From NCBI GenBank assembly GCA_028824125.1, contig JAPPES010000151.1, forward strand, positions 48,663 through 112,662: a DNA stretch of 64,000 bases, in the 5' to 3' direction. The notes below the pieces were generated by a model. It was not told the DNA's origin, ran no database searches, and worked only from the letters and a program-made list of their open reading frames with translations. Shown in pieces: positions 8,313 through 31,139 of this stretch. The DNA is from Candidatus Poribacteria bacterium (lineage in GTDB: Bacteria > Poribacteria > WGA-4E > WGA-3G). Both the position numbers and the translations under genes were made by a program. The stretch's first letter is position 1. Each line of letters starts with the position of its first letter.

Positions 8313-9089
8313 ATGAAAAGAATATCACTTTTTACAATATGCTTCGCAATTTTCATCGCATGTTGGGTGTTTTTGAGGTTCGTCGTTGGTGGCGTTATCT
8401 CAGTGCCGATACCAAGTAGCGTGATTTCGATGTATATGGGGTTGGTCCTCATCGCCATTTTGGTGCATGTTTCCGTTGAAGACACAAGATTTCGGGAATT
8501 CCTCCGCCCCATCCACGAGACACTCGTTGGCGAAAACCGTCGTGTACGGCGCATCGTCTTGGCAGTGTTGATTCCGCTCCTTATGCTTGGGTATACATAT
8601 TCAAATCTTGCACAAAAAGCCAATCCACCTGGAGATCCGCGCGATGCGCATCCATCGCCTCCACTTGAATTGACATACAAGGATGAGGTTATTGGGTCAA
8701 TGCAGGATGTTGAAAATCCTTATCGTCACTATGAAAAAGACGATCCAGAAAAGTTCAAATCACATGTAGAAAATGGAAGACGCGTCTATTACCAGAACTG
8801 TTTTTATTGTCATGGGGATCACCTTGATGGAAAAGGACACTTTGCAGACGCGCTAAATCCATTGCCTGCAAATTTCCAAGACCCAGGTATTATTCCGAAT
8901 TTCCAAGAATCTTTCTTTTTTTGGCGAATTAGTAAAGGCGGACCCGGGTTACCGGCATCAGGGACACCGTGGAACTCAGCGATGCCAATCTGGGAAGATC
9001 ACTTAACGAAAGAAGAAATCTGGGACGTTATCCTCTTCCTATCTGATTATACTGGGTATCCGTATCGAACATTTGGGGAGGGACATTAA
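8313..9089 (+). CDS. Membrane-anchored monohaem cytochrome c
   Basis: 258 residues with an excellent RBS (AAGGAGG). Three N-terminal helices (SLFTICFAIFIACWVFL; VISMYMGLVLIAILVHV; IVLAVLIPLLMLGYTYS) precede a periplasmic class I cytochrome c domain. The haem motif is CFYCHG near residue 166 with DGKGHFADALNP behind it, and the probable distal Met lies in WNSAMPIWEDHLT. Third consecutive oxidase-associated cytochrome in this operon. The architecture resembles membrane c-type subunits of cbb3 or ACIII systems, but I do not see a closer family match. Confidence 0.8.
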   Translation: MKRISLFTICFAIFIACWVFLRFVVGGVISVPIPSSVISMYMGLVLIAILVHVSVEDTRFREFLRPIHETLVGENRRVRRIVLAVLIPLLMLGYTYSNLAQKANPPGDPRDAHPSPPLELTYKDEVIGSMQDVENPYRHYEKDDPEKFKSHVENGRRVYYQNCFYCHGDHLDGKGHFADALNPLPANFQDPGIIPNFQESFFFWRISKGGPGLPASGTPWNSAMPIWEDHLTKEEIWDVILFLSDYTGYPYRTFGEGH

Positions 9090-9090
9090 A

Positions 9091-10788
9091 ATGAGAAGCA
9101 AAAATGTTGTCTACTTAATCCTTATTTTAGGTCTACTCTCTGTTTATAACTTGATATTTGCGCAGGACGCTCCAGAAGTCTCGGAAAAAGGAAAAGAGGT
9201 CTATGAAGAAAGTTGCGCACACTGCCACGGCACCGAAGGACGTGGTGATGGCAGTGCAGCAGAAAATCTTTTGCCACAGCCGAGAGATTTCACACGTGGA
9301 TTATATAAAATTCGATCTACAGAAAGCGGGCAACTCCCCACTGATCAGGATTTATTCGACATCATCACCGAGGGGATGCCCGGTTCATCAATGCCTGGGT
9401 GGGAAACTTCATTAAAAGCTGATGAACGCTGGGAAGTGGTCGCATATATTAAAACCTTCTATGATGGCTTTAAAGAAAGTGAAACACCACCTCGGCAAAT
9501 CAGTCTGGAGGGTAAAATTCCTTATTCTGAAGAGAGTATAGAAATTGGGAAGGGACTTTATACACAGTTCGCATGTTTTGAATGCCACGGTCAGGTAGGG
9601 CGAGGCGATGGCACCTCCGCACCAACTCTCCAAGATGAATGGGGTTTTCAGAGTTGGCCAGCAAACCTCGCACAAGGTTGGAATTTCAGAGGTGGAAACG
9701 ATATAGATGACATTTACAAGCGGTTCATCGGTGGAATTGCTGGTTCAGCGATGCCCATGTTTGAAGACCCTGCTTTCGGCTTAACTATAGAGCAATCCAT
9801 ACGTTATAACGAATTAGACAATAAAGTTGAAATGACAGAGGCTGAGGAAGAAGAATATAACCAACTTGATGAAAAAATGGGGAATGCTTTTGAAATCTTA
9901 GACCTTATGGCAGAGGGCAGCGCAGATGAAGAACAAAAACAATCCTATGCTACAGCAATGAAGGCGTTTTACGAGAAAAGTTGGCACTTAGCGAACTACG
10001 TCAAATCGCTTTCTTCTGAAAAGAGACCAGAACCAGCAATTGGTAAAAATGTGCTTCGGTCACAATATACAGAAGATGATTTGCCTCAGATAATGGATGC
10101 TGCTTGGGATACACTTGATTCAAGCTACTTTCCACTTGTTGGGCAAATTATCATTGAACCGAGACAATTTAATCCGACAATTGACTCGGTTAACGCCAAA
10201 TCGTTTTACAATGATACGGAGGTAGCATTCCTCTTCACATGGGATGACCGCACTAATAATACCGAAGTCAAAGAGAATGAAGATACTGGCAAAACGTTTG
10301 AGGATGCAATTGCTATTCAATTTCCTGTGAAAATACCAAAAAGCCCCACCGCTGAGAAACCCTATTTCCTTTGGGGTGGAAGAAAAGCTGTCTACCTGTG
10401 GGAGTGGAAAGCATCTGCTGCCGATAAGATTACAGAACTCACAGCAAAAGGTATAAATAATGCTGAGGAACAAGAAATTCAAGGTGACCTTCAGGTAGAA
10501 GGTAAATACACAGATGGTCAATACAATTTATGGATCAAACGTGCTTTGAAAACAGATGATAAGAAAGACTTGCAGCTGGAACCCGGTGTATTTGTGCCTA
10601 TCGCTTTTTCAGCTTGGGATGGCGCAAATGGTGATGTTGGGACAAAACGGGTTATCTCAAGTTGGTATTCTTTTGTGTTAGAACCTGTTCCCTCATCAAG
10701 AAGGTTTATTTATCCGCCATTAGTGGCACTTCTCTCGTTCGGTTTGTTGGTCGGACTACGAGAGTTTGTACGGCAAAGAAATACGTAA
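9091..10788 (+). CDS. Dihaem cytochrome c fused to an EB_dh/NxrC-like haem-binding domain
   Basis: The track start at 9073 is replaced by ATG 9091, 8 nt after GGGGAGGG; 566 residues. Signal peptide (VVYLILILGLLSVYNLIFAQ). Two cytochrome c domains: CAHCHG near residue 43 and CFECHG near 162. From about residue 325 the sequence (AAWDTLDSSYFPLVGQIIIE ... VAFLFTWDDRT ... AIQFPV) matches the ethylbenzene-dehydrogenase-gamma type haem b domain found in DMSO-reductase-family gamma subunits, including NxrC. A C-terminal helix (YPPLVALLSFGLLVGLREFV) anchors it. No molybdenum catalytic subunit is in this window, so the domain is probably reused as an electron-transfer subunit for the oxidase cluster. 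Confidence 0.78.
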   Translation: MRSKNVVYLILILGLLSVYNLIFAQDAPEVSEKGKEVYEESCAHCHGTEGRGDGSAAENLLPQPRDFTRGLYKIRSTESGQLPTDQDLFDIITEGMPGSSMPGWETSLKADERWEVVAYIKTFYDGFKESETPPRQISLEGKIPYSEESIEIGKGLYTQFACFECHGQVGRGDGTSAPTLQDEWGFQSWPANLAQGWNFRGGNDIDDIYKRFIGGIAGSAMPMFEDPAFGLTIEQSIRYNELDNKVEMTEAEEEEYNQLDEKMGNAFEILDLMAEGSADEEQKQSYATAMKAFYEKSWHLANYVKSLSSEKRPEPAIGKNVLRSQYTEDDLPQIMDAAWDTLDSSYFPLVGQIIIEPRQFNPTIDSVNAKSFYNDTEVAFLFTWDDRTNNTEVKENEDTGKTFEDAIAIQFPVKIPKSPTAEKPYFLWGGRKAVYLWEWKASAADKITELTAKGINNAEEQEIQGDLQVEGKYTDGQYNLWIKRALKTDDKKDLQLEPGVFVPIAFSAWDGANGDVGTKRVISSWYSFVLEPVPSSRRFIYPPLVALLSFGLLVGLREFVRQRNT

Positions 10789-13421: not shown

Positions 13422-14081
13422 ATGCTTGGATGGCTTCCAGAGAATATATCAGAATACGCGCAAGGTGTTGATAAACTCTTTGCACTCATCTATTGGATTA
13501 CCGTGGTGGCGTTTGTTCTTGTGATAGGTACTCTTATCGTATTCTTAATTAAATACCGTCATCGAGCGGGACACCGCGCGGAATACATTGAAGGAAGTAC
13601 GAAACTTGAAATCATCTGGACGGCTGTAACTACAGTGATTGTGTTTGGATTGGCAATGCTCAGCTTCCCAGAGTGGAATAACCTTAAATCACCAGCTGAA
13701 AATCCTGATTATGTCGTTCAGGTTCGAGGTGAACAGTTTAACTGGTATATGATCTACCCCGGTCCAGATAATGAATTGGGCACAGAAGACGATCTGGAAT
13801 TGGAAAACGAATTGTATGTCCCAGAAGACAAACTTGTGCAAATCTTATTAACTTCAAAAGATGTGATTCACAGTTTTTTTATACCTAATTTGCGCCAGAA
13901 ACAGGACGCACTGCCAAATCAAACTATTGACACTTTAAAGTTTCAGGCAAGAGAGCCTGGGCGTTATGAAATTCCGTGTGCCGAACTCTGTGGATTTGGA
14001 CACTCAGGCATGCTCGGATATCTCATTGTGCAAACACAAGAAGAATATGATGCATGGGTTGCGGAACAGTGGCCTGAGTAA
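13422..14081 (+). CDS. coxB: Cytochrome c oxidase subunit II (CuA)
   Basis: 219 residues, RBS AAAGGAG. Two N-terminal helices (LFALIYWITVVAFVLVIGTL; LEIIWTAVTTVIVFGLAML) form the hairpin, followed by a periplasmic cupredoxin domain. CuA ligands are all present: His in KDVIHSFFIP and CAELCGFGHSGM (Cys, Glu, Cys, His, Met). It lacks a fused cytochrome c domain, unlike caa3-type CoxB, which fits with the many separate cytochromes upstream. The domain has an acidic insert (PDNELGTEDDLELENE) before the conserved core. Confidence 0.93.
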   Translation: MLGWLPENISEYAQGVDKLFALIYWITVVAFVLVIGTLIVFLIKYRHRAGHRAEYIEGSTKLEIIWTAVTTVIVFGLAMLSFPEWNNLKSPAENPDYVVQVRGEQFNWYMIYPGPDNELGTEDDLELENELYVPEDKLVQILLTSKDVIHSFFIPNLRQKQDALPNQTIDTLKFQAREPGRYEIPCAELCGFGHSGMLGYLIVQTQEEYDAWVAEQWPE

Positions 14082-14150
14082 GTGACGTCAGAGCGGCCTG
14101 ATTCAATAGCAATTCGCAATTGCAGCGTCGTGAAAGGAGTAAATATAAAG

Positions 14151-16115
14151 ATGCAAGAAAACGAAAATATTTCACATGAGCATGACGATGACGAACATCA
14201 CGAGCATGCACATGACGATAACGATACTATGGAACACACACATGAGCATGACAACGATGAACATCACGATCATGCTGATCATCATGAAGAGAGTTTTATT
14301 CGCAAATATATCTTTTCACTTGACCACAAGATGATCGGAAAGCAGTTCCTTATCTATGGGTTGATCATGCTATTTGTTGGAGGCGGACTCGCACTGCTTT
14401 TTAGATGGCAACTTGCTTACCCTGAAACACCCGAACTGGAGGGGGGTAAACCTGCAAAGGCCGCGAAACCTTTACCTATCATTGGTCCTTCTCAAAAGTA
14501 TATTGATGATGGAGAGGTGGTTACCGGTGCAGATAAAATGTGGGAGCGGATTTACGATTCCGATAAAGAGGAATTTCTTGAAGTAAACATGCCGAGCGGT
14601 TTAATTGAACCGCATTTCTACAACATGTTGTTTACGATGCATGCCACTATAATGGTGTTCTTTGTCGTTGTTCCTATATTAGTGGGTGCTTTTGGAAATT
14701 TCTTGATTCCTCTAATGATAGGCACGCGGGATATGGCATTCCCCGTTCTCAACATGCTATCATTTTGGCTTGCCGTGCTTGCAGCAGTTATAATGGCAGC
14801 TGGGTTTTTCGTACCGGGTGGACACGCTTCAGCAGGTTGGACAGGATATGCTCCGCTATCATCTGACCCACAGTGGACCGGTGTTGGATGGGGACTCAAC
14901 CTATGGGCAATCAGTTTGTTGATTCAGGGGTTTTCGTCTTTAGTAGGTTCCATAAACTATATTACAACAATTATCAATATGCGCGCGCCAGGTATGACAT
15001 TCTTGAGGCTTCCGTTAGTCATCTGGTCACTATTTATCGTAGCAATTCTGTTGCTTCTCGCTTTTCCTGTCTTGTCCTCTGCTTTAGCACTTCTCATATT
15101 TGATAGACTTGCAGGCACGACATTCTTTACCTCCACAGCTGAAGGTGGTGGTTCTTCGCTACTCTGGCAACACCTATTCTGGTTCTTTGGACATCCAGAG
15201 GTATATATTCTTATTTTACCGGGTATGGGGATTGCATCCGAATTAATCGCTGTTAACTCACGCAAACCGATTTTCGGATACCGCTCTATGGTATACGCGA
15301 TGATCGCAATCGCATTCTTAGGATGGGTTGTTTGGGGACATCACATGTTCCAAAGTGGGATGCGTCCCGGTATGGGAGCATTCTTCATGACGACAACAAT
15401 GCTTATTGCAGTACCTTCAGCTATTAAGACATTTAATTGGCTCGGCACGATGTTCCGTGGTTCAATCCGATTTACAACACCGATGCTTCATGCTATCGCC
15501 TTTGTGTCTATGTTTGTAATCGGCGGACTCAGCGGCATCTACATGGCTAACACACCAGTGGATATCTACATACACGATACTTACTACATTGTAGCGCATA
15601 TTCACTATGTCGTTTTTGGCGGAAGTCTGTTTGCTATTTTCGGTGGTATTATCTTCTGGTTCCCGAAGATGTATGGACGCTATATGAATGATACGTTGTC
15701 CAAAATTCATTTTTGGTTGACCTTCATAGCGTTTAACTGCACTTTCTTCCCAATGCACATTCTCGGCGTAGGCGGTCACATGCGACGCATTTCTAACCCG
15801 ATGCAGTATGAGTACCTGCAAACCTTTGAAGGCATGAACATATTTATCACAATGAGCGCATTTACGCTCGGTTTTGTGCAGTTGATACTTGTCTTCAATT
15901 TTGTCTGGAGCATTTATCGTGGTAAGGTCGCTGAAAAGAATCCGTGGAACGTCACCACATTGGAATGGGAGGCACCAACACCAGTGCCGCACGGCAATTT
16001 TGCTCAGATTCCGACTGTTTATCGTGGTCCTTATGAATACAGCGTCCCTGGCGAAGAATCTGATTTCATTCCGCAGGCACAACCTGAGCATGCTCCAGCA
16101 AGTGCTGGAGATTAG
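14151..16115 (+). CDS. coxA: Cytochrome c oxidase subunit I with histidine-rich N-terminus
   Basis: The track start (GTG 14082) is too early: AAAGGAG at 14134-14140 serves ATG 14151 (MQENENI), giving 654 residues. The first 45 residues are packed with His, Asp and Glu (HEHDDDEHHEHAHDDND), a likely cytoplasmic metal-binding tail. The core is a haem-copper oxidase of the A1 type: FGHPEVYILILPG gives the CuB His, the channel Glu and the cross-linked Tyr; HHMFQSG gives the CuB His pair; HDTYYIVAHIHYV gives the haem a and a3 ligands; GTRDMAFPVLNMLSFW gives the D-channel Asp. An insert of about 70 residues follows the first helix (ELEGGKPAKAAKPLPIIG). Confidence 0.94.
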   Translation: MQENENISHEHDDDEHHEHAHDDNDTMEHTHEHDNDEHHDHADHHEESFIRKYIFSLDHKMIGKQFLIYGLIMLFVGGGLALLFRWQLAYPETPELEGGKPAKAAKPLPIIGPSQKYIDDGEVVTGADKMWERIYDSDKEEFLEVNMPSGLIEPHFYNMLFTMHATIMVFFVVVPILVGAFGNFLIPLMIGTRDMAFPVLNMLSFWLAVLAAVIMAAGFFVPGGHASAGWTGYAPLSSDPQWTGVGWGLNLWAISLLIQGFSSLVGSINYITTIINMRAPGMTFLRLPLVIWSLFIVAILLLLAFPVLSSALALLIFDRLAGTTFFTSTAEGGGSSLLWQHLFWFFGHPEVYILILPGMGIASELIAVNSRKPIFGYRSMVYAMIAIAFLGWVVWGHHMFQSGMRPGMGAFFMTTTMLIAVPSAIKTFNWLGTMFRGSIRFTTPMLHAIAFVSMFVIGGLSGIYMANTPVDIYIHDTYYIVAHIHYVVFGGSLFAIFGGIIFWFPKMYGRYMNDTLSKIHFWLTFIAFNCTFFPMHILGVGGHMRRISNPMQYEYLQTFEGMNIFITMSAFTLGFVQLILVFNFVWSIYRGKVAEKNPWNVTTLEWEAPTPVPHGNFAQIPTVYRGPYEYSVPGEESDFIPQAQPEHAPASAGD

Positions 16116-16138
16116 TTAGTATAAATAATTTCCACTGG

Positions 16139-16259
16139 TAGGTGTCAATTTGGCAAATACTTTCTTGTTGGAGGGCTTTGTCCGCCCGATTTATTACCAA
16201 AGGTAGGCGCGTTTACAAAACGCGCCTACCAGGGTGGCGAACCGCTAAATTGACACCTA
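16139..16259. repeat. MITE-like palindromic unit inside the cox operon
   Basis: A 121-bp unit bounded by perfect 13-bp inverted repeats (TAGGTGTCAATTT at 16139 and its complement ending at 16259). Inside are GGAGGGCTTTG...GCCCG and a hairpin, GGTAGGCGCGTTT/AAACGCGCCTACC (16202-16230). The same left end (TAGGCATCAATTT then CTTGGAGGGCTTTG) recurs at 63904. The unit fills almost all of the coxA-ctaA gap and creates a false N-terminal extension of ctaA in the ORF track. Confidence 0.75.
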
Positions 16260-16285
16260 TTAGAAAATGTCCTGCGGAAAATAGC

Positions 16286-17239
16286 ATGAAGAAACAAAGC
16301 AGCTATAGCCCTTGGTTACATCGAGTAGCATGGTTCACCGCAGGTGCAACGTTTCTGTTAATTGTTATAGGAGGAATTGTTACAAGCACCGAGTCAGGAT
16401 TGGCAGTACCAGATTGGCCCACCAGTTTCGGATATAACATGTTTACCTATCCATTATCAGAGATGGTGAAGGATCCCAAAATACTTTATGAACATAGTCA
16501 TAGGTTAATGGGATCGTTGGTCGGCCTGTTGACGATTACACTGTTTGTCATGTTATTGGTCAAGGACTCGCGTGGGTGGGTAAAATGGCTTGGGTTTGCA
16601 GCGCTAATCGGTGTAAGCGTGCAGGGTGTTCTCGGTGGACTTCGGGTTACGGAGGTTAATCTTAATTTTGCGATAGTACACGCGTGTCTTGCCCAAGCGT
16701 TCTTTGCATTGCTCTGCGGAATATGTTGGTTTACTTCACGCGATTGGATTGAAAACCAAAATCTATCTGAAAGTATTATTGATAATGTTTCAGCAAAAAA
16801 ATTACGGAGATTAAGCCTCATTACAACATGCTTGATATATGTTCAGCTCATCTTCGGAGCAATTTTACGACATACTGGAAGTAGACTCGACGCGCATCTT
16901 CTTTTTGCATTCTTGGTAGCACTGCATATATTCCTATTGGTAAGACGTTTCTTTAATACGGGTGATAACACGCAAAAAATTGGTCAATCGTTGCCTTTGC
17001 TATTGTTGGGTTTACTTGTAGTGCAGTTAATGCTCGGAATCGGTGCTTATATTACAAAACTGACTACCTTTGGTGCAACAGCATCAGCACTACTTACGGA
17101 TATTGTTACAACTGCCCACGTAGCAGTTGGAGCACTAATGTTAGTAAGTAGTTTTGTGATTACATTGAAAATTTATTGGTTTACAAATACTACAATTCCT
17201 ATAGAAACACCTGTCACCAGCTCATTGGTTACAGAGTGA
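16286..17239 (+). CDS. ctaA: Haem A synthase (COX15/CtaA)
   Basis: The track ORF begins at 16142 inside a repeat unit; the true start is ATG 16286 (MKKQSSYSPWLHRVAW), giving 317 residues. About eight helices with the four conserved His areas: EHSHRLMGSLVG, VHACLAQAFF, LDAHLLFAFLVALH and TTAHVAVGALM. The early motif TSTESGLAVPDWP is the family signature. It converts haem O to haem A for the adjacent CoxA and is followed 9 nt later by ctaB. The RBS is weak, which may reflect insertion of the palindromic unit upstream. Confidence 0.93.
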   Translation: MKKQSSYSPWLHRVAWFTAGATFLLIVIGGIVTSTESGLAVPDWPTSFGYNMFTYPLSEMVKDPKILYEHSHRLMGSLVGLLTITLFVMLLVKDSRGWVKWLGFAALIGVSVQGVLGGLRVTEVNLNFAIVHACLAQAFFALLCGICWFTSRDWIENQNLSESIIDNVSAKKLRRLSLITTCLIYVQLIFGAILRHTGSRLDAHLLFAFLVALHIFLLVRRFFNTGDNTQKIGQSLPLLLLGLLVVQLMLGIGAYITKLTTFGATASALLTDIVTTAHVAVGALMLVSSFVITLKIYWFTNTTIPIETPVTSSLVTE

Positions 17240-17248
17240 GACAACATA

Positions 17249-18175
17249 ATGCGTTCAACAACAGCAACATTACCAGATAGTAGAGAAGCAACAAATCCAC
17301 CGTCAAGAGCCACAGTTTTTGTAGGGCGAGTGGAGGATTATGTTGAGCTTGTCAAACCGAGATTGGTACTGATGATATTGATTACTACCGCTGCAGGATT
17401 CTATCTCGGCACACGAGGTGATGTGAATTGGTTACTTTTCCTACATACACTTATCGGTGCGGGCTTAACAGCCGCAGGCGTTTTAGGACTGAATCAATAC
17501 TTAGAACGCGATATCGATTCACAGATGGAACGCACACAGCAAAGACCACTGCCAGCAGGTAGGATCCATCCCATAGAAGCACTGCTTTTCTGTGCATTTC
17601 TAACAGGAAGCGGAATGCTTTATCTTACTTTTCTCGTAAATCCACTCAGCGGATTTGTTATCTCCTTAATAGTTGTAAGTTACCTGTTTGTATATACGCC
17701 ACTTAAGCGAAAAACGTCATTATGTACGTTAATCGGTGCGGTTCCGGGCGCATTACCACCTGTCGTTGGATGGGTTGCAGCGCAAGGCAGGCTTTCAAGC
17801 CAAGCATGGGTATTATTTGCCATTCTTTTTCTGTGGCAACTTCCACATTCGCTTGCAATTGCTTATATCTATCGTGAAGACTATGCAAATGCAGGATTAA
17901 AGTTGTTGCCCGTTATCCATCCGGATGGCGCAAGCACACGCCGCCAGATTGTAACAAATTGCGTTGCATTATTCGGGATTGGACTTCTCCCAACGCTATT
18001 CAATATTGCTGGCGGAATATATTTCCTTGCTGCACTATTTGTAGGTGGGATGTTTCTGGCAAGCGGTGTTTATTTAAAGAAAACACACTCAGTGAAAGCG
18101 GCAAGGTATGTGCTGTACGCATCTCTACTATATCTACCACTAATATTTATCACGATGGCAATTGACAAAATATAG
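17249..18175 (+). CDS. ctaB: Protohaem IX farnesyltransferase (haem O synthase)
   Basis: 308 residues. UbiA-superfamily prenyltransferase with the family motifs NQYLERDIDSQMERTQQRPL (Mg-diphosphate binding, residues about 80-100) and a second aspartate region near YREDYANAGLKLLP. Helices throughout. It converts haem B to haem O, the substrate of CtaA encoded just upstream. An N-terminal soluble stretch of about 28 residues precedes the conserved VELVKPRLVLM. Confidence 0.94.
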   Translation: MRSTTATLPDSREATNPPSRATVFVGRVEDYVELVKPRLVLMILITTAAGFYLGTRGDVNWLLFLHTLIGAGLTAAGVLGLNQYLERDIDSQMERTQQRPLPAGRIHPIEALLFCAFLTGSGMLYLTFLVNPLSGFVISLIVVSYLFVYTPLKRKTSLCTLIGAVPGALPPVVGWVAAQGRLSSQAWVLFAILFLWQLPHSLAIAYIYREDYANAGLKLLPVIHPDGASTRRQIVTNCVALFGIGLLPTLFNIAGGIYFLAALFVGGMFLASGVYLKKTHSVKAARYVLYASLLYLPLIFITMAIDKI

Positions 18176-18194
18176 TGTGATCAAAGGAGACCAC

Positions 18195-18461
18195 ATGAAC
18201 GAGCAAGAACGGCGCAAACGAAATCTCAGGGTTGGCATGATATTAGGTCTACTGTTTGTAGGATTGTTTACCATCACGACGTTAGGATTAGTTTTTGGGT
18301 TTGAAGCATCCCCGCCAGTAAAGAAAATTGTTCACTGGACCACCACAATAATTGCTGGTATTATTGGATTCTTCCTGATAGGCGCGGCACTTGTTGAGAT
18401 AATTGTGAAGCCAATATTTGTAAAGATTGAAACAAGCAGAGCTCGCAGATTACGTGAATGA
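18195..18461 (+). CDS. Small two-helix membrane protein of the cox operon
   Basis: The start is ATG 18195 with RBS AAAGGAGA; the track start at 18162 overlaps ctaB. 88 residues: basic N-terminus (NEQERRKRNLR), two helices (MILGLLFVGLFTITTLGLVFG; TTTIIAGIIGFFLIGAALVEII) and a basic tail. I do not recognise the family. Position between ctaB and subunit III suggests an oxidase assembly factor or accessory subunit. Confidence 0.7.
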   Translation: MNEQERRKRNLRVGMILGLLFVGLFTITTLGLVFGFEASPPVKKIVHWTTTIIAGIIGFFLIGAALVEIIVKPIFVKIETSRARRLRE

Positions 18462-18483
18462 TGACGCATAGTGAGAATTAAAA

Positions 18484-19053
18484 ATGACCGAAAGTCGCCC
18501 CTTGAGCAACGCTAAATTGGGAGTTTTAATCCTACTCGGCGCTGAAACGATGTTATTCGTGGGTTTAATCGGTGCATTTCTGGTATTTCGGATAGGGAAT
18601 GTCACCTGGCCCCCGCTGTCAATCGATAATATACAACTGCCACGTTTGGTGACCGGTATCAACACCGTACTTCTAATTATAAGTGGCTACACAATGTTTT
18701 TGGCACTACGTGCAGTTCAGCAAGATCGTATAAAACAACTCCGAAATTTCTTGGTGTTCACGGGAACATTAGGGTTGTTTTTTCTGGTAGTCCAAGGCAT
18801 CGAATGGGTCCAACTTATAGGTAAAGGATTGACGCTTCAATCTGGCGTTTATGGTGGTATCTTTTATGTGCTTATTGGATGCCATGCAGTGCATGTGTTA
18901 GGAGCGGTAATTTGGTTAGCGATTGTTATCGGTATGGCAATAGTAGGAAAGTATTCATCTGTCCATTATACCGGTGTTGAAACGTGTACAATTTATTGGA
19001 TATATGTGGTCGCACTGTGGCCGATACTTTATGTTTTAGTTTACCTTGCTTAA
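18484..19053 (+). CDS. Cytochrome c oxidase subunit III (first copy)
   Basis: 189 residues, five predicted helices. The opening LGVLILLGAETMLFVGLIGAFLVFR matches haem-copper oxidase subunit III, as do GIEWVQLIGKGLTLQSGVYGGIFYVLIGCHAVHV and the final YWIYVVALWPILYVLVYL. It is shorter than the seven-helix type and like the short CyoC/CoxC forms. A second, more distant subunit III follows at 19412, so either two oxidase variants share this operon or one copy has a special role. Confidence 0.88.
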   Translation: MTESRPLSNAKLGVLILLGAETMLFVGLIGAFLVFRIGNVTWPPLSIDNIQLPRLVTGINTVLLIISGYTMFLALRAVQQDRIKQLRNFLVFTGTLGLFFLVVQGIEWVQLIGKGLTLQSGVYGGIFYVLIGCHAVHVLGAVIWLAIVIGMAIVGKYSSVHYTGVETCTIYWIYVVALWPILYVLVYLA

Positions 19054-19064
19054 AGGAAACGCTT

Positions 19065-19292
19065 ATGATTCGTCAAATTCTTTTATTCATTTTTGTGATC
19101 GGATTTATTATTTCAATTGTGCCATTTAGTCTTGAGGCATGTCCCGCTTGTAAAAACCTTGACGAACCGATCGCACGAGGTTTTAATTGGAGTGTGCTTT
19201 TTATGATGGCAATGCCGTTCACGGTTTTCGGAATTATCGGTGGCAGCGTGTTTTATTCCTATCGCCGTGCCAACAGAAATCTGAATGTGTAA
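19065..19292 (+). CDS. Small membrane protein with CPAC motif
   Basis: The start is ATG 19065 after AAAGGAAA; the track start at 18984 lies inside subunit III. 75 residues. Signal-like helix (LLFIFVIGFIISIVPFSLEA), then CPACKNLDEPIARGFNWS, then a second helix (LFMMAMPFTVFGIIGGSVFY). A CXXC right after the first helix suggests a periplasmic metal or redox site. Unknown family; probably a cox assembly factor. It ends about 120 nt before the second subunit III. Confidence 0.65.
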   Translation: MIRQILLFIFVIGFIISIVPFSLEACPACKNLDEPIARGFNWSVLFMMAMPFTVFGIIGGSVFYSYRRANRNLNV

Positions 19293-19411
19293 CACGTTTC
19301 TTCAAAAGCAAAATATATTAACGGTGTTACAATGAACTTTTAGCGTAAACAACACCTTAATTTGCTATTTTATTATGATGTAATTTCTAACAAAAAAAGG
19401 AGTTTAGTATA

Positions 19412-20062
19412 GTGGAACAAGCTACCACTTTAGAACATACTGAAGACGTATACGAACCTTCGCTTACGCCTGATAGCCTCGGTAAACTCGGCATGTGGAT
19501 TTTCCTAATTGGCGATACCATGTCGTTTGGCGCGCTGCTTGCGGCTTATGCAGCACTCCGTACGGGCGCAGGTGTAATCGGATGGGTTCCCCCAAGCGAA
19601 ATACTCGGTATTAACCTGACCGCAGGTATGACGTTCCTATTAATTTGCAGTAGCGTCACAATGGTTAAAGCGTTAGAGTCAATTCAAAAAGGCAACGTAT
19701 CTCGAATGTGTACGTTCCTTGGCTTAACTATATTAGGTGGTGTAATATTTCTTGGATTGCAAGCGTACGAATGGACACATCTGATTAAACACGGGTTGAC
19801 GCTTACTGAAATCCCTGAGCACGGACTAAAGGGCGGTGCTATTGCTGGGTCAACACTTTTTGGTCCTACTTTTTATGCAATCACAGGTTTCCACGGGTTA
19901 CACGTAACAGGTGGGGTAATCTATCTTATCGTGATATTGATACATGGGTTGCGTGGAAGATATACAGCAGAATTTAATCATGAGGTGGAAATTGTCGGAC
20001 TCTATTGGCACTTTGTTGACCTTATTTGGATTATGGTTTTCACTTTCATCTATCTAATTTAG
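19412..20062 (+). CDS. Cytochrome c oxidase subunit III (second copy)
   Basis: 216 residues; GTG start with AAAGGAG 12 nt upstream. Core motifs LGMWIFLIGDTMSFGALLAAYAALR, LQAYEWTHLIKHGLT, TFYAITGFHGLHVTGGVIYLI and VGLYWHFVDLIWIMVFTFIYL are typical of subunit III. It is better conserved at the C-terminus than the copy at 18484. With the following subunit IV it forms the usual III-IV pair. Confidence 0.92.
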   Translation: MEQATTLEHTEDVYEPSLTPDSLGKLGMWIFLIGDTMSFGALLAAYAALRTGAGVIGWVPPSEILGINLTAGMTFLLICSSVTMVKALESIQKGNVSRMCTFLGLTILGGVIFLGLQAYEWTHLIKHGLTLTEIPEHGLKGGAIAGSTLFGPTFYAITGFHGLHVTGGVIYLIVILIHGLRGRYTAEFNHEVEIVGLYWHFVDLIWIMVFTFIYLI

Positions 20063-20074
20063 GAGGACCCAAAA

Positions 20075-20413
20075 ATGGCTCAAAATGGACATAATGAGCA
20101 TCCGAAATACATGTGGATTTTCTTGTGGCTTGCTGTCCTGACTGCTATTGAGGTCGGCATAGTTATTCCCGATTTTCCTAAAGCACTTACCATCATACTA
20201 CTCATCGGTTTGGCATGTGCTAAGGCTATCTTGGTTGCTGTCTATTTTATGCATCTAAAGTTTGAAAAACGCACTTTGGCAGTTATCGTTATTACGCCTT
20301 TTCTTATCTGTGTGTTCCTTGTTATAATGCTCCTGCCCGATTTGACATCAGATAAACGGCACGAAGGTATTGAAAAACCAGCAGCAGAGGTCGTTGAAAC
20401 TACAGAGCACTAA
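20075..20413 (+). CDS. Cytochrome c oxidase subunit IV (COX4_pro type)
   Basis: 112 residues, RBS AGGAGG. Three helices with the subunit IV signature AKAILVAVYFMHLKFEKRT around residues 48-66. The tail after residue 90 is charged. It is the small stabilising subunit of bacterial caa3/aa3 oxidases, 12 nt after subunit III. Confidence 0.9.
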   Translation: MAQNGHNEHPKYMWIFLWLAVLTAIEVGIVIPDFPKALTIILLIGLACAKAILVAVYFMHLKFEKRTLAVIVITPFLICVFLVIMLLPDLTSDKRHEGIEKPAAEVVETTEH

Positions 20414-20458
20414 GATTCGGGCGGTGATTGATCTGTCGCACTGTATGTGTGAACAAAT

Positions 20459-21094
20459 ATGGAAAATCAGACAGACAACCTTAATCATGATGAACGCAAA
20501 CTTGATAAAAGCACACTGCCTTGGATAATATTGGGGCTCATCGTTATCGGTATTGCTATTCTCAATTTGTGGTTAGTTTTTAAGAATAAACCAGAATCAA
20601 CAGCAGAAGTTGTCCACGCGAGCGTTCCTGATTTCAGTCTGACCAACCAGCAAGGACAACCGCTGGGTTTATCCGATTTACAAGGCAAAATCTGGGTTGC
20701 TGATTTTATTTTTACCCACTGTCCAACGATATGTCCTGTGATGACGCAGGAAATGGTAAAACTGCAATCGGAATTTGACTCAGATCCTGTTACTTTCGTC
20801 TCTTTCACAGTTGACCCAGAGCGGGATACACCAGAAGTTCTTTCGCGTTATGCCGTGCAATATGGTGCTGACAAACAACGATGGCATTTCCTCACTGGTG
20901 AAAAGAATCAGATTTACCAATTGGCTAACGATGGTTTTAAATTAGCCTCAGCTAAGCACGGAGGTGGGTTTCCGCATAGCACAAGGTTTGCCCTTGTAAC
21001 ACCAGATGGAAACATTTACGGCTACTACGATAGTCGTAGTAAACCTGCGATGAAACGTTTACGCAAGGATATCAAAACACTTCTCAAAAAATGA
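20459..21094 (+). CDS. SCO1/SenC copper chaperone
   Basis: 211 residues. An N-terminal helix (LPWIILGLIVIGIAILNLWLV) anchors a thioredoxin-fold domain in the periplasm. Copper ligands: Cys pair in THCPTICPVMTQ and His in GGFPHSTRFALVTP. It loads the CuA site of CoxB. Its stop overlaps the ATG of the next small gene (ATGA). Confidence 0.93.
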   Translation: MENQTDNLNHDERKLDKSTLPWIILGLIVIGIAILNLWLVFKNKPESTAEVVHASVPDFSLTNQQGQPLGLSDLQGKIWVADFIFTHCPTICPVMTQEMVKLQSEFDSDPVTFVSFTVDPERDTPEVLSRYAVQYGADKQRWHFLTGEKNQIYQLANDGFKLASAKHGGGFPHSTRFALVTPDGNIYGYYDSRSKPAMKRLRKDIKTLLKK

Positions 21095-21478: not shown

Positions 21479-23395
21479 ATGAAAAAGATATACGTCCCTG
21501 TAGATAATTCAGACTATTCAGATGCCAGCATTGACTTAGCTGTTGAATTCGCAAAAAAATTCGATTCACAGTTAGTTGGGTCTCACGTCTACGCGGCAAA
21601 AATGCACGATGTACGCTTTAAGCAGATGGAATATACACTGCCAGAGGAGTATCAGGACGAAGTAGAACTCGAAAAACAGCGCCGTATCCACGACACACTC
21701 ATTACCATGGGGCTCCAACTCATTTCGGATTCCTATCTTGAGGTAATGAAAAAGAAGTGTGAAAAACTTGAGATTCCGTTTGAAGCGAAGATGCCTGAAG
21801 GCAAGCACTACATCAAACTGGTCGAAGACATTCAGGAAAGCGATTACGATCTTGTTATTATGGGCGCGCTCGGTATGGGTGCTGTCAAAGATAGCCTCAT
21901 CGGAGGCGTCTGTGAACGCGTTGTGCGGCGTATTACTACTGATACACTGGTCGTCAGAAACCTTGACCCGATTGAAGAACAATCTGGTAACATCCTTGTC
22001 GGAATCGATGGAAGTCCTGAATCTTTTTTTGGGTTGAAAACCGCCATCCGTCTTGGTCAGAAATTCAATAAACAAGTGGAAGCTGTAGGCGTATATGATC
22101 CCTATCTGCACTACATCGTTTTCAATTCTGTTGTAAATGTCCTGACTGAACGTGCCGCCAGAACATTCAGATTCAAAGAGCAGGAACAGCTGCACGAAGA
22201 AGTAATAGATACCGGTCTTGCTAAAATATATCAATCACATCTTGAAGTTGCCCGTTCTATTGCCAAAGAAGATCACGACTATAAATTAAAAATTACACTC
22301 CTTGATGGCAAAGCTTATGAAAAAATACTACAATACACCCGAAAAACAGAACCGTGGTTACTCGTTATAGGCAGAATTGGTGTCCATAATGAACAAGATT
22401 CGGACATTGGCAGCACAGCTGAAAATCTCTTACGTCTTGCCCCCTGTAATGTCCTGCTGTCAAGCCAACGTTATTTCCCACAAATTGATGTAAAAGCGGA
22501 AGAAACCCTCGTCTGGACGCAGGAAGCGATGGATCGAATGGAGAAAGCACCGCCACTTGTGCGTGGTATTGCCAAGACTGCGGTGCATCGTTTTGCAATT
22601 GAACGTGGACATTCTGTTATTACTGAAAGCGTTATTGACAAAGCGATGGAAGCGATAATGCCCCAACGCGCCTCTGAAAAACTGACACGCGTTGCCAAAG
22701 AGATCGCAGAGCAGAAAGTTTTGGAAGCAGGTGATGTGCAAACCTATATCTGTGGGGAGTGTGGCTATGCAGCGCATAACCAACAACCTGTCCAATGTCC
22801 TGTTTGTAGTTCTCCACCAGAACGTTTCCAGATGGTGGATAAAGATTCCATTGAACACATCGCCATCGACGAAGGTGGTACTGCAGAAGAGGAAACATTT
22901 GACGGTGTCCGCTTACAATGGTCTGAGCAGGCGAAGAAAGCACTGCGTACCGTGCCACGCGGTTATATGCGGCGCAATGTTAAAGCACGAATCGAAAAAT
23001 CTGCACGATCCCAAAAGATTGGCACGATTACAAATGATTTTGCCATGCAGATTATTGACGACAGCATGGGGGAAGCTGCAGCTGTGCGTGAAGATGCCCC
23101 TGAACTCAGAGCCATGCAAACGCAAGCCGAACCGCAAAACGCTGAAGCAAATGTTGACTTTAAAAGTGCTCTGCAATGGAATGAAGATGCTATAGAACGA
23201 TTGAATTTAGTCCCCGCCGGTTTTATGCGAAAGATCACCCAAACGCGCATTGAACAACGTGCCCAAGAGGCGGGTATTTTAAAAATTACGCTTGATTTTG
23301 CCGCACGGGTCATAGAGGATGGCAGAAGTCTGGCAAATGAAGTACTCGGTGAGTATTACCAACAAGCAAACAATGGAAATAATCAAGATAACTAA
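21479..23395 (+). CDS. Double universal-stress protein fused to rubredoxin-like knuckle and three PCP_red-like domains
   Basis: 638 residues. UspA domain 1 (residues 1-160) has the nucleotide loop GALGMGAVKDSLIGG. UspA domain 2 (about 168-325) starts NILVGIDGSPES. PCP_red-like domains: (i) about 345-395, VWTQEAMDRMEKAPPLVRGI; (ii) about 480-530, LQWSEQAKKALRTVPRGYMR; (iii) about 565-620, LQWNEDAIERLNLVPAGFMR. Between (i) and (ii) is a rubredoxin-like pair of knuckles, YICGECGYAA and CPVCSSPPERF, a likely Fe or Zn site. Both Cys pairs are intact, so metal binding is plausible. The combination suggests a nucleotide-sensing scaffold tied to tetrapyrrole or Fe-S chemistry. A motif ATAGACTTTACTATAATAATGG just upstream also precedes the Uma2 gene at 31497. 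Confidence 0.82.
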   Translation: MKKIYVPVDNSDYSDASIDLAVEFAKKFDSQLVGSHVYAAKMHDVRFKQMEYTLPEEYQDEVELEKQRRIHDTLITMGLQLISDSYLEVMKKKCEKLEIPFEAKMPEGKHYIKLVEDIQESDYDLVIMGALGMGAVKDSLIGGVCERVVRRITTDTLVVRNLDPIEEQSGNILVGIDGSPESFFGLKTAIRLGQKFNKQVEAVGVYDPYLHYIVFNSVVNVLTERAARTFRFKEQEQLHEEVIDTGLAKIYQSHLEVARSIAKEDHDYKLKITLLDGKAYEKILQYTRKTEPWLLVIGRIGVHNEQDSDIGSTAENLLRLAPCNVLLSSQRYFPQIDVKAEETLVWTQEAMDRMEKAPPLVRGIAKTAVHRFAIERGHSVITESVIDKAMEAIMPQRASEKLTRVAKEIAEQKVLEAGDVQTYICGECGYAAHNQQPVQCPVCSSPPERFQMVDKDSIEHIAIDEGGTAEEETFDGVRLQWSEQAKKALRTVPRGYMRRNVKARIEKSARSQKIGTITNDFAMQIIDDSMGEAAAVREDAPELRAMQTQAEPQNAEANVDFKSALQWNEDAIERLNLVPAGFMRKITQTRIEQRAQEAGILKITLDFAARVIEDGRSLANEVLGEYYQQANNGNNQDN

Positions 23396-25264: not shown

Positions 25265-26149
25265 GTGAAAAGTTACAAGGAACTTCCGGATGATGCCGGT
25301 TCCAACATTATCGGGCAAGTAACAGCGCAAGCAAACCGCCTCACCAAACGTCTCGCCTCAATAAAACGAACAGTCGCTATAATGAGTGGGAAAGGCGGTG
25401 TCGGCAAAAGTGCTGTTACTGCCAACCTCGCTACCGCACTCACACTGGCGGGTTATACTGTCGGTGTCGTTGATGCTGACATCAACGGTCCAACGATTGC
25501 TAAAATGATGGGGGTACGCAACGCAACGCTTGAATATACCTCCGCAGGTGTCAAACCCGCCATCAGTTCCCTTGGCACGAAGATCATCTCAATGGATCTG
25601 CTGCTGTCTGAAGATGATGCACCAGTGCTGTGGAGTGCACACACACAAAAGGATGCTTTCACATGGCGTTCCACCATGGAAGTCGGCGCACTGCGGGAGT
25701 TTATCGGCGATACCGAATGGGGCGAGTTGGATTATCTTTTGCTCGATCTGCCCCCAGGTTCTGACCGCCTACCGAATGTAGCTGAACTTATCCCAAATCT
25801 CGGTGGCGTGATCGTTGTAACAATCCCTTCCGAAGTTTCACATCTGATTGTCAGAAAATCTATCACAATGGCGAGAGATATTTTCAAGGTGCCGATTATC
25901 GGCATTGTAGAAAATATGGCATTCTATGCGTGTAAACACTGTGGTGAACACGAATCCCTCTTTTCTCCTGAAGATACACCTGATAACACGTTTCAGGTAA
26001 CAACGCTTGGTAAAATCCCTTTCGATCCGAAACTATCGCATTGTAACGACAACGGCACGCCTTATATCCATGAATACCCAGATTCCCTTGCAAGCGCAGC
26101 AATTTTAGAAGTGACACAAAAGATTCAAGATTTCTTCAAATATTACTGA
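25265..26149 (+). CDS. Mrp/NBP35-family P-loop ATPase (Fe-S carrier type)
   Basis: 294 residues; GTG start only 2 nt after the PQQ gene. Deviant Walker A MSGKGGVGKSAVTANLATAL near residue 40, switch regions DADINGPTIAKMMGV and LLLDLPPGSDR. A CXXC pair (FYACKHCGEHESLFS, near 220) is the bridging [4Fe-4S] site of Mrp/ApbC proteins. Expected role: carry and transfer Fe-S clusters to apoproteins. Neighbours with Cys knuckles and a radical SAM enzyme are plausible clients; that is inference. Confidence 0.9.
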   Translation: MKSYKELPDDAGSNIIGQVTAQANRLTKRLASIKRTVAIMSGKGGVGKSAVTANLATALTLAGYTVGVVDADINGPTIAKMMGVRNATLEYTSAGVKPAISSLGTKIISMDLLLSEDDAPVLWSAHTQKDAFTWRSTMEVGALREFIGDTEWGELDYLLLDLPPGSDRLPNVAELIPNLGGVIVVTIPSEVSHLIVRKSITMARDIFKVPIIGIVENMAFYACKHCGEHESLFSPEDTPDNTFQVTTLGKIPFDPKLSHCNDNGTPYIHEYPDSLASAAILEVTQKIQDFFKYY

Positions 26150-26171
26150 TAAGGGAATCTTAAAAGTAGTA

Positions 26172-26282: not shown

Positions 26283-26807
26283 ATGAAATTCTTATGTATA
26301 GACTGCGACACAGCAATGAAATTTAAAGACGTAACCCGTCCTGAACAGGGTTCCGTCACCGCTGTTTTTGAATGTCCCGACTGTTTTACAGAGATTGCAA
26401 TGTTCCTCAATCCGTGGGAAACACAGATGTTAAAATCCTTGGACCTAAAACTCGGTGGTAGCGGCGAAGCGGCACAACCGATGCAGATGGTACGCTCACA
26501 GTTAGAGACTGCAAAACAGGATTCCATGCCAAATGTATCGTCAGAAATGGGTTCTGGAGAAACCGCAGAAGGTGGAAAGTGTCCTTTTACCGCTGTCATT
26601 TCGGACGCTTTTGAGGAAAAACCAGAATCTGAACCTGAAGGTCCAACGTGGACACCTGAGGCACTTGAGCGTTTAGAACGTATCCCAAGTTTTGTTCGTC
26701 CGATGGCAAAGATGGGTATCGAAAGTTTTGCGAAAGAAAACGGACATACCGAAATTACTGGTGAAGTGATGGATGCCGCACGAGGAAACTTCCCTGCGCA
26801 GTTCTAA
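26283..26807 (+). CDS. Zinc-knuckle protein with C-terminal PCP_red-like domain
   Basis: 174 residues; RBS TGGAG. N-terminus has two Cys pairs, FLCIDCDTAMKF and FECPDCFTEI, forming a zinc-ribbon-like or Fe site. A linker with CPFTAVISDAFEE follows. The C-terminal 50 residues (WTPEALERLERIPSFVRPMA ... EITGEVMDAAR) form a PCP_red-like domain very like those in the neighbours at 21479 and 28575. No membrane segment. Likely a small metal-binding partner in the same system. Confidence 0.78.
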   Translation: MKFLCIDCDTAMKFKDVTRPEQGSVTAVFECPDCFTEIAMFLNPWETQMLKSLDLKLGGSGEAAQPMQMVRSQLETAKQDSMPNVSSEMGSGETAEGGKCPFTAVISDAFEEKPESEPEGPTWTPEALERLERIPSFVRPMAKMGIESFAKENGHTEITGEVMDAARGNFPAQF

Positions 26808-28115: not shown

Positions 28116-28574
28116 ATGCGTCATATCGTAGAACTTTTCATCCGATGTATCCATCTCATTGCAGCAATAGTCTGGTTCGGAGGTGTCGTCTTTTCAACTT
28201 TGATTGCAATGCCGATAGTTCGGCAAAACTTACCAGCACAAGACCTGTTAGAAATTCACAATAGATTTCGCCACTGGATACGATTGATGATTAATATGCT
28301 TTTACTCACAGGCGGGATTGTAATTTTTATTGTGGCATGGAATAATGACATGAAATTAAGTGCCGAATATATGATATATTCTGCTGCAAAGTTAGTCGCA
28401 TTCGGATTGATGGCACTCTTTTGGGGACTATACAGTTCACTCTATCGGCGGCACCTTGAAGCAGCACAGCCAAATAGTTCAGTTATCGTCCCACGTCACA
28501 TCAATGTTTTTGGACATTTAACGCTTTTTTCAGGATTAATTGTTTTTGCGCTTGCGTTGTTATTGAGAAATTAA
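28116..28574 (+). CDS. Four-helix membrane protein, CopD/HemJ-like
   Basis: 152 residues. Four helices; helix 1 carries RCIHLIAAIVWFGGVVFSTL, the His and W-F-G pattern shared by CopD-like and HemJ-like (protoporphyrinogen oxidase) small membrane proteins. A second His cluster occurs in EIHNRFRHWIRLM and a third in PRHINVFGHLTLF, which could ligate haem b or copper. It abuts the radical SAM gene (stop then ATG within 1 nt), so the two are cotranscribed. CopD-like copper import versus a haem-linked redox role cannot be separated here. Confidence 0.65.
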   Translation: MRHIVELFIRCIHLIAAIVWFGGVVFSTLIAMPIVRQNLPAQDLLEIHNRFRHWIRLMINMLLLTGGIVIFIVAWNNDMKLSAEYMIYSAAKLVAFGLMALFWGLYSSLYRRHLEAAQPNSSVIVPRHINVFGHLTLFSGLIVFALALLLRN

Positions 28575-29879
28575 ATGCAAAACACAAAAGTTCAGGCAGT
28601 CTCATGGAATATCACCAGATTATGCAATCTGAAATGTACGCACTGCTATCTTCCCGCGGGGTTTGTAGACACAGACGAATTCCCACAAGGGTATCACAGG
28701 GATACAGAGCTAAACCAATCAGAGTGCTTTCGTGTCATTGATGAAATAGCCGAAATCAATCCGCATATTCTGCTGATACTTACGGGTGGCGAACCGTTGT
28801 TGCGTCCCGATATTCTGGAGATTTCAAAATACGCTTCAGATACTGGATTCCTTGTTGTGATGGGAACAAACGGTGTCCTACTGAACAATGAAGTGGTTGA
28901 AAAGATGCAACAGCACGGCGTTACTGGTGCAGGTATTAGTCTTGATTCTATCCAACCGACAAATCACGACAAATTTCGGGGCATGGAAGGTGCGTGGAAA
29001 GCAACAATGAACGGTGTTGAAGCACTCAAACGCGCACAACTTGACTTCCTTGTCCAAACCTCTGTGACGCAGTGGAATTACGATGAAATCCCTGAGATTG
29101 TGGAATATGCTTATCAGTTAGGTGCAAAGGTGCTAAACCTCTATTTTCTCGTACGAACAGGTAGGGGCAAGACGGTAATGGACATCACACCTGCACAATA
29201 TGAAAAGATGCTTGAGACAATGTTTCAACTGCAGGCAAAGTATAGCGGAAAAATGCTCATCGCGGCGAAATGCGCGCCGCACTACAAACGCGTTATCTAC
29301 GAACAACAGTCCGATTCAGCCTTCCTTCAAGGCTATCCGAGTGGCACTTGCCCTTGTGGTATCTATTATTGTCGCATCAGTCCAGAAGGCGAGCTTACAC
29401 CGTGTCCGTATCTACCTGTTAGCGTTGGCAATCTCAAAAATGAGAGTTTTGTCAAACTGTGGAATGAATCGGAAACTTTTCATGACTTGCGAAATCGGGA
29501 TCTGCTGCAAGGCAAGTGTGGCGCATGCGAATTCAGAGAGGTATGCGGCGGATGTAGAGCACGTGCTTATGCCACGACTGGCAACTACCTCGCAGCAGAT
29601 GAATCTTGTGAATACCAACCCGGACAACAGGGACAACAACCTGTTCAACTTGAAAAACGGACTGCCTTTGCAACTGAACCCGATTATGATTTAAAATGGA
29701 ATGAGGCGGCGGAAAAAAGATTGAAACGTGTCCCCTCATTTGCGCGCGGCATGGTTATCAAAAGCGTTGAAAAATACGCGCGTGAACACGGTTATCGTGA
29801 AATAACGCCTGAACTTATGAAAGCGGTCAAAAAACGGTTTGATAAAACAGGCATCCCTTCTTTTCGACCGCGGCGATAG
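28575..29879 (+). CDS. Radical SAM/SPASM enzyme with C-terminal PCP_red-like domain
   Basis: 434 residues. Radical SAM cluster CNLKCTHC (residues 17-24) with WNITRLCNLKC, the style of NirJ/AhbC/AhbD haem-modifying enzymes and PqqE relatives; SAM-binding ILTGGEPLLRPD. The SPASM region holds many Cys (CPCGIYYC ... CPYLPVSVGNL ... CGACEFREVCGGCRAR), giving auxiliary Fe-S clusters. After about residue 370 a PCP_red-like domain follows (LKWNEAAEKRLKRVPSFARG). The fusion of a haem-type radical SAM core with this domain, near Mrp and haem A genes, points to tetrapyrrole or peptide-cofactor chemistry. The substrate is unknown. Confidence 0.85.
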   Translation: MQNTKVQAVSWNITRLCNLKCTHCYLPAGFVDTDEFPQGYHRDTELNQSECFRVIDEIAEINPHILLILTGGEPLLRPDILEISKYASDTGFLVVMGTNGVLLNNEVVEKMQQHGVTGAGISLDSIQPTNHDKFRGMEGAWKATMNGVEALKRAQLDFLVQTSVTQWNYDEIPEIVEYAYQLGAKVLNLYFLVRTGRGKTVMDITPAQYEKMLETMFQLQAKYSGKMLIAAKCAPHYKRVIYEQQSDSAFLQGYPSGTCPCGIYYCRISPEGELTPCPYLPVSVGNLKNESFVKLWNESETFHDLRNRDLLQGKCGACEFREVCGGCRARAYATTGNYLAADESCEYQPGQQGQQPVQLEKRTAFATEPDYDLKWNEAAEKRLKRVPSFARGMVIKSVEKYAREHGYREITPELMKAVKKRFDKTGIPSFRPRR

Positions 29880-30725: not shown

Positions 30726-31139
30726 ATGAGCGAGCAAATTAACGTTCAAGAACGGCTCACGAGTGTTGAAGACCGCTTAGAACGTCTGGAAAGTCTACTT
30801 ACCAGCATCAATGAGAAGTTAGAGCAAACACCGCAAAACAGTGTTGCAGAATCTGAAAGCACAGAAAAGTTTCAAGAGTGGGTAACAGACTATGTCTCAA
30901 TGCGGTTACAGCAACTTGTACCAGAGACATGTGATCATCCTGCTGAAGCAGCTGTGCTGGACGGGCCTTTTCTTGACAACACCAATGTCCCTTGCACGGA
31001 AGAGGTAGTGCATCGTGTCAAACGCATTCCGATCCCATTTGTGCGAGAGATGGTTGTGCAACGTGTGGCAGAGAATGCGCGTTCCGCTCAAGTAGAACGT
31101 GTGGATATTGAATTCTTTGAAAAAGCAGCCACGTTCTGA
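30726..31139 (+). CDS. Coiled-coil protein with PCP_red-like C-terminus
   Basis: 137 residues, RBS AAGGAGG, 9 nt after the PhyH gene. Residues 5-40 form a heptad coiled coil (RLTSVEDRLERLESLLTSIN). The last 50 residues (CTEEVVHRVKRIPIPFVREM ... QVERVDIEFFEKAA) align by eye with the other PCP_red-like domains, though the first Trp is replaced by Cys. A lone TCDHP may be metal-binding. Fourth member of the set in this region. Confidence 0.68.
   Translation: MSEQINVQERLTSVEDRLERLESLLTSINEKLEQTPQNSVAESESTEKFQEWVTDYVSMRLQQLVPETCDHPAEAAVLDGPFLDNTNVPCTEEVVHRVKRIPIPFVREMVVQRVAENARSAQVERVDIEFFEKAATF

Follow-up and report, generated by a model that had tools for sequence, protein, structure and literature searches.

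A widespread tandem universal stress protein with PCP_red domains in Poribacteria and its possible tie to tetrapyrrole enzymes

Locus and domain architecture

The window, that is, the whole stretch of DNA analyzed here, comprises 64,000 nucleotides of a Candidatus Poribacteria genome (the host; GenBank assembly GCA_028824125.1, contig JAPPES010000151.1, positions 48,663 to 112,662), and its main features are collected in Table 1. The central open reading frame starts with an ATG at position 21479 and continues for 638 codons, none of them a stop, to the termination codon ending at 23395. Pfam profiles identified in its product the universal stress protein domain (Usp, PF00582) over two stretches with 120.4 bits against a cut-off of 24, as in tandem-type Usps, and PCP_red (PF08369) over three stretches with 98.1 bits against a cut-off of 32.5. 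A rubredoxin-like knuckle with the cysteines C425-x2-C428-x11-C440-x2-C443 follows the first PCP_red domain; it falls below the threshold of RUBY_RBDX (PF21349; 20.6 bits, cut-off 26.5), and rubrerythrin sequences match it with E values of 5e-6 and 4.7e-8, in agreement with the fold. Pfam, together with sequence and fold for the knuckle, returned exactly the order Usp-Usp-PCP_red-rubredoxin-PCP_red-PCP_red that a first-pass annotation had read from the DNA.

None of these domains is new, and domain databases must already list the architecture. No published description of this Usp-PCP_red protein was found in the open-access literature, outside which most subscription journals lie, under PCP_red, Usp with rubredoxin or heme-binding Usp. 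The C-terminal PCP_red of BchB/ChlB, subunit B of dark-operative protochlorophyllide reductase (DPOR), is the same small domain by profile and fold. The Usp-PCP_red protein is nevertheless not a DPOR subunit B: it lacks the catalytic part of BchB, and the BchB equivalog model gives 64.9 bits against 509, with a match over the C-terminal 56 positions only.

Table 1. Features of the window and the evidence or context for each.
Feature	Position in window	Strand	Evidence or context
CydA-like membrane protein	4838..6751	+	PF01654, 69.5 bits; conserved respiratory context, 25 loci
c-type cytochrome with ethylbenzene-dehydrogenase-type heme-b domain	9073..10788	+	Conserved context, 23 loci
Cytochrome oxidase cluster with heme A/heme O synthases (CtaA, CtaB) and Sco	13422..21094	+	Presumptive names, from sequence recognition; immediately upstream of the Usp-PCP_red gene
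Usp-Usp-PCP_red-rubredoxin-like-PCP_red-PCP_red protein, 638 aa	21479..23395	+	Intact ORF, Pfam, orthologs
Usp domain 1, aa 1-160	21479..21958	+	Pfam Usp; conservation in 88 sequences; fold
Usp domain 2, about aa 170-330	21986..22468	+	Pfam; conservation in 88 sequences; fold
PCP_red domain 1, aa 346-389	22514..22645	+	Pfam; fold (2kru/2l09)
Rubredoxin-like knuckle, aa 423-450, CxxC-x11-CxxC	22745..22828	+	Sequence, fold
PCP_red domain 2, aa 479-524	22913..23050	+	Pfam, relatives
PCP_red domain 3, aa 565-610	23171..23308	+	Pfam, relatives
Mrp/ApbC-type P-loop iron-sulfur carrier ATPase	25265..26149	+	Conserved neighbor, 26 of 79 loci
Zinc-ribbon-like protein, 174 aa, one PCP_red	26283..26807	+	PCP_red 64.5 bits; after Mrp; 18 of 79 loci
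Small membrane protein, weakly CopD- and HemJ-like (UPF0093)	28116..28574	+	Both matches under cut-off; neighbor in 11 loci
AhbD/NirJ2-like radical SAM/SPASM enzyme, C-terminal PCP_red (aa 375-419)	28575..29879	+	Profiles, linkage, co-inheritance
Likely coiled-coil protein with divergent PCP_red	30726..31139	+	PCP_red 22.1 bits, below cut-off

The succession of cytochrome oxidase, heme A/O synthases, Sco, Usp-PCP_red, Mrp, zinc-ribbon PCP_red protein, small membrane protein and radical SAM PCP_red enzyme is largely kept in the poribacterial order to which the host belongs. Six matches to PCP_red were detected in the host genome, all of them within this locus: three in the Usp-PCP_red protein, one in the zinc-ribbon-like protein, one at the end of the radical SAM/SPASM enzyme, plus a weak match in the likely coiled-coil protein. 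The host therefore has no BchB with PCP_red, and both DPOR and phototrophy can be ruled out for it. PCP_red has been used to prescreen genomes for phototrophy (PMC12815261); it is an unsafe marker, because it was present in all 20 tested genomes that carry the Usp-PCP_red protein and because every host match is explained by this locus.

Other parts of the neighborhood recur as well. The Mrp/ApbC ATPase followed by the zinc-ribbon-like PCP_red protein forms a conserved pair in several phyla (25265-26807 in the window, 4781-6391 in L139 and 7750-9398 in L143). Proteins of about 330 aa consisting almost entirely of three or four PCP_red domains are encoded in two loci (L103, 14124-15110; L064, 16282-17295). 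The CydA-like protein and the product of 9073-10788, together with c-type cytochromes, are kept near the Usp-PCP_red gene in several phyla and possibly belong to an unusual respiratory complex. Two related secreted proteins of the window (3858-4628 and 10861-11661) contain a copper-site-like pattern, HNVH...CDIHGWM, and a carboxypeptidase-regulatory-like domain; their relatives occur near the Usp-PCP_red gene in 26 loci.

Distribution and conservation of the Usp-PCP_red protein

Across a whole poribacterial order, the great majority of genomes, some of them assembled in one contig, encode a full-length ortholog with 77-95% identity. The tandem-Usp part was scanned against bacterial and archaeal genomes, and 80 of 248 relatives were kept for analysis. 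Relatives with the same plan are found in Methylomirabilota/Rokubacteria, Nitrospirota, Chloroflexota, Alphaproteobacteria, Rhodothermales, Calditrichota, Marinimicrobia and others. The architecture recurs in at least nine bacterial phyla, next to an enzyme that resembles a heme synthase. The first-pass annotation had allowed for frame errors joining separate genes and for an absence of the architecture in relatives; the orthologs in single-contig genomes and in many phyla rule out a frame error or chimera, and the architecture it had called unusual is real and widespread, not unique.

Among 78 distinct, non-duplicate loci, the tandem Usp is followed by at least two PCP_red domains in 73 and by at least three in 66, and Chloroflexi members mostly have five. 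Five loci lack PCP_red, at least two of which (L112 and L113) are cut by a contig end. Two others, L047 and L069, appear to be true forms with the tandem Usp alone, and both adjoin a radical SAM gene that carries PCP_red.

The knuckle was found in 55 of the 78 loci, and all 65 sequences containing it keep its four cysteines (CxxC...CxxC) without exception. It is missing from every alphaproteobacterial member, and is therefore an optional or accessory part that some lineages have lost. Rubrerythrin and nigerythrin share with it the CxxCGY-x-CPxC knuckle and the helix that precedes it, whereas the Usp-PCP_red protein has no di-iron domain, its knuckle stays under the Pfam cut-off and one class dispenses with it. 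The idea that the protein senses iron or redox state through the knuckle is accordingly poorly supported, and the loss in a whole class weakens redox sensing as a core function.

Usp domain 1 contains the ATP motif G129xxG132x9G142, followed by a glycine where serine or threonine is expected, and domain 2 contains a complete motif, G298xxG301x9G311S312. In 88 aligned sequences the motif glycines of both domains are 99-100% conserved. Equally conserved across these sequences, which come from many phyla, are H36, H43, M50 and H71, carried by a long helical insert in domain 1, and H211, H239, H254 and H303 in domain 2; in an alignment inspected by eye, the two domains appear pseudo-symmetric, with H43 corresponding to H211 and H71 to H239.

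An AlphaFold model of the full protein (64 relatives) reached a mean pLDDT of 81.8 with a pTM of 0.58, and one of the C-terminal half a pLDDT of 85 with a pTM of 0.46, values too low in both cases to define how the domains are arranged. The solved structures closest to the full-length model are tandem Usps, namely Rv2623 (Mycobacterium tuberculosis), ATP-bound TTHA0350 (Thermus thermophilus) and UspE (Foldseek E values 2e-16 to 1e-13). For the model of the C-terminal half, the solved PCP_red structures 2kru and 2l09 are among the top five Foldseek matches, with a TM score of 0.76 on the target, an rmsd of 1.6 Å and weak E values of 0.02-0.04. Rv2623, TTHA0350 and UspE have the tandem Usp fold and ATP motifs in both domains in common with the Usp-PCP_red protein, which differs from them in the addition of two to five PCP_red domains and usually the knuckle, in the long helical inserts with invariant histidines, and in an identity of only 13-20%. 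The invariant glycines of the G-x2-G-x9-G motifs and the resemblance to ATP-bound tandem Usps make binding of ATP by the tandem Usp, as the first-pass annotation had suggested, plausible.

The AhbD-like radical SAM partner and other tetrapyrrole enzymes

In 24 of 36 well-flanked loci across phyla, a radical SAM gene neighbors the Usp-PCP_red gene, always on the same strand and often overlapping it or lying within tens of bases; 23 of these 24 radical SAM genes carry PCP_red. Both genes are present in 66 poribacterial genomes and neither in 14, while two genomes have only the Usp protein and three only the radical SAM gene; these counts come from a comparison of two genome lists and are phylogenetically clumped, amounting to one large clade and one independent genome. 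The two genes also occur together when unlinked: they are far apart in five complete genomes (G021, G078, G080, G081 and G082), and in two Nitrospiraceae genomes the partner, with 70% identity, lies on contigs other than that of the Usp-PCP_red gene. No AhbD-like partner was found in any of five Chloroflexi genomes tested, all of which have the Usp-PCP_red protein, and the partnership is therefore not obligatory.

The NCBIfam models nearest to the partner are mostly tetrapyrrole enzymes (AhbD, NirJ2 and NirJ), always below cut-off. Partners reach 290-330 bits with the AhbD model, whose cut-off is 500 (TIGR04545; 328 bits for the host gene), so the reaction of the partner may differ. Eleven cysteines are invariant in 50 partner sequences, arranged as CX3CX2C and CX25CX17CX37CX2CX5CX2CX17C, and they comprise the radical SAM motif and the eight cysteines of a SPASM domain. 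This spacing falls inside the full motif reported for AhbD, CX20-33CX17CX36-37CX2CX5CX2CX17-35C, which serves two auxiliary clusters (PMC10452713), and on these grounds the partner is AhbD-like in its predicted cluster anatomy. It shares the complete cysteine motif of this radical SAM/SPASM heme synthase, although it differs from AhbD in its extra C-terminal PCP_red, in a score under the AhbD cut-off and in its genomic setting, since siroheme decarboxylase is absent from 19 of 20 genomes. The AhbA/AhbB siroheme-decarboxylase domain (PF17805) was found in just one of the 20 genomes and not in the host, and the host and 18 other genomes lack an AhbA/B-NirDL domain, which rules out that they make heme or heme d1 by way of siroheme.

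PCP_red was also identified in Nitrospirota as a fusion to the N-terminus of a ChdC/HemQ-like coproheme decarboxylase, in two diverged groups: a close form in three genomes, and a diverged group of about fifteen in which all seven members read have the fusion (the loci are L137/L147, L148/L168, L149/L167 and L159-L165). The N-terminal module of these enzymes is the one found in the Usp protein, whereas the ChdC/HemQ fold is unrelated, there is no fusion to Usp and most ChdC proteins have no PCP_red. Three unrelated tetrapyrrole enzymes thus carry PCP_red, namely the radical SAM AhbD-like enzyme, ChdC and BchB, which suggests that the domain may mark tetrapyrrole enzymes in general. BchB, AhbD-like and ChdC-like enzymes have unrelated folds and all act on porphyrins with propionate side chains, as is established (PMC7242693). 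In addition, a protoporphyrinogen oxidase gene is part of the cluster in 15 alphaproteobacterial loci, directly after the radical SAM gene where the flanks allow this to be seen; the one tested scored 242 bits with TIGR00562 (cut-off 98).

Genes for a ferrochelatase, a HemY-type oxidase and a HemE-like protein are close together in the host genome, and a ChdC-like gene is also present (L170, 2834-3562, contig C30); its product is diverged, and PF06778 matches the C-terminal half only. These genes and the absence of siroheme decarboxylase indicate that the host appears to use the coproporphyrin route, the final step of which falls to AhbD in some organisms and to ChdC in others (PMC7242693). 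Given this route, an oxygen-independent AhbD-like step is plausible as a second way to finish or modify heme, not as the only one; with ferrochelatase, HemY and the ChdC-like gene present, the AhbD-like enzyme is unlikely to be the only heme synthase of the host.

Possible role and alternative explanations

Taken together, it looks as though a tandem universal stress protein has been recruited to tetrapyrrole metabolism, and the Usp-PCP_red protein is probably a helper, not described before, in making heme-type cofactors for respiration. More specifically, we tentatively favor a scaffold or chaperone that is dedicated to tetrapyrrole (heme) enzymes and built on an ATP-binding tandem Usp. The N-terminal tandem Usp would be its ATP-responsive core, and the three PCP_red modules (two to five in other phyla) would hold partners with a module of the same kind, chief among them the AhbD-like enzyme, whose gene lies some five kilobases downstream. 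The modules may also help to hold the tetrapyrrole. At the site of respiratory cytochrome assembly, the scaffold would probably organize or shield the oxygen-sensitive step from iron-coproporphyrin III to heme b, or some other change to heme side chains; the knuckle would be an accessory that some lineages could lose.

To our knowledge, no function has been established for PCP_red, even in BchB, and we infer docking through it, as we do ATP binding, a physical complex and the chemistry of the partner; the open frame, the domains and their order, the broad conservation, the linkage and co-inheritance with the AhbD-like enzyme and the presence of PCP_red on BchB, AhbD-like and ChdC-like enzymes are observations. 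Docking of other PCP_red proteins had been proposed in the first-pass annotation, and it receives indirect support from the confinement of all host PCP_red domains to this locus and from the linkage and co-inheritance, even when unlinked, with the PCP_red-tailed radical SAM enzyme. That annotation had missed the tetrapyrrole theme, to which the AhbD-like partner, the PCP_red-ChdC fusions and the protoporphyrinogen oxidase belong. The neighboring cytochromes and heme A/O synthases also count in favor of a scaffold for heme enzymes. The Chloroflexi genomes that have no partner count against it, as do L047 and L069, where a Usp-only form stands beside a PCP_red-carrying radical SAM enzyme, and a second heme b synthase may be redundant in the host because it also has the ChdC-like gene.

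If a scaffold for heme enzymes is the correct reading, a role open to testing would become available for two very abundant yet poorly understood modules, Usp, whose clients are mostly unknown, and PCP_red. In a more far-reaching version, which is possible and which we regard with more doubt than the scaffold itself, the Usp-PCP_red protein and the PCP_red-tailed AhbD-like enzyme would form an undescribed and widespread tetrapyrrole-processing complex, PCP_red would be the shared recognition module of BchB, AhbD-like and ChdC-like enzymes, and a heme enzyme would for the first time be seen to use a universal stress protein as its ATP-dependent scaffold.

A sensor of stress or energy state is an unlikely alternative of some substance. 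The tandem Usp would then sense ATP/ADP, perhaps also redox state via the knuckle, and switch PCP_red-carrying proteins of respiratory maturation, as a regulator outside tetrapyrrole chemistry. The intact ATP motifs, the fold of ATP-binding tandem Usps and the respiratory gene context would all fit such a regulator, which comes near the idea of the first-pass annotation. However, all alphaproteobacterial members lack the knuckle, no conserved link to a kinase or transcription factor was found, and the protein's stable co-inheritance with a single enzyme family points to a more direct role than sensing in general.

Somewhat less probable is a carrier function, in which the eight invariant histidine and methionine residues of the tandem Usp would make up one or two binding sites for heme or a metal, which the protein would deliver to cytochromes or the oxidase. 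Their near-complete conservation in the 88 sequences, their pseudo-symmetry and the abundance of cytochromes in the neighborhood are consistent with this, but the histidines may serve structure or nucleotide binding, and we know of no Usp that carries heme.

We consider it improbable that PCP_red is a general small helical adaptor without a tie to tetrapyrroles. The Usp-PCP_red protein would in that case be a generic assembly factor of respiratory complexes, and the radical SAM partner would act on one of the proteins in these complexes. In favor are the frequent modification of peptides by radical SAM/SPASM enzymes and the presence of PCP_red in zinc-ribbon proteins next to Mrp/ApbC and in proteins that consist of PCP_red alone. 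Under this reading, the fusions to ChdC-like enzymes and BchB and the neighboring protoporphyrinogen oxidase would be coincidences. An artefact, through frame errors or contamination, has nothing in its favor beyond the fact that most genomes are metagenome assemblies, and is refuted because frame, order and length agree between dozens of independently made assemblies, single-contig genomes among them, and across phyla.

A different setting was observed in Alphaproteobacteria, where the Usp-PCP_red gene in L051, L071, L094, L109 and other loci lies beside genes for an AioA/IdrA-like molybdoenzyme (TIGR02693, above cut-off) and its Rieske subunit. This island possibly represents an iodate- or arsenite-type respiration with undescribed accessory genes; such a neighborhood is limited to Alphaproteobacteria, which rules it out as the general role of the protein. 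The same loci encode two MauG/MbnH-like diheme proteins, a large HEAT-repeat protein and sometimes a SUMF1-like protein.
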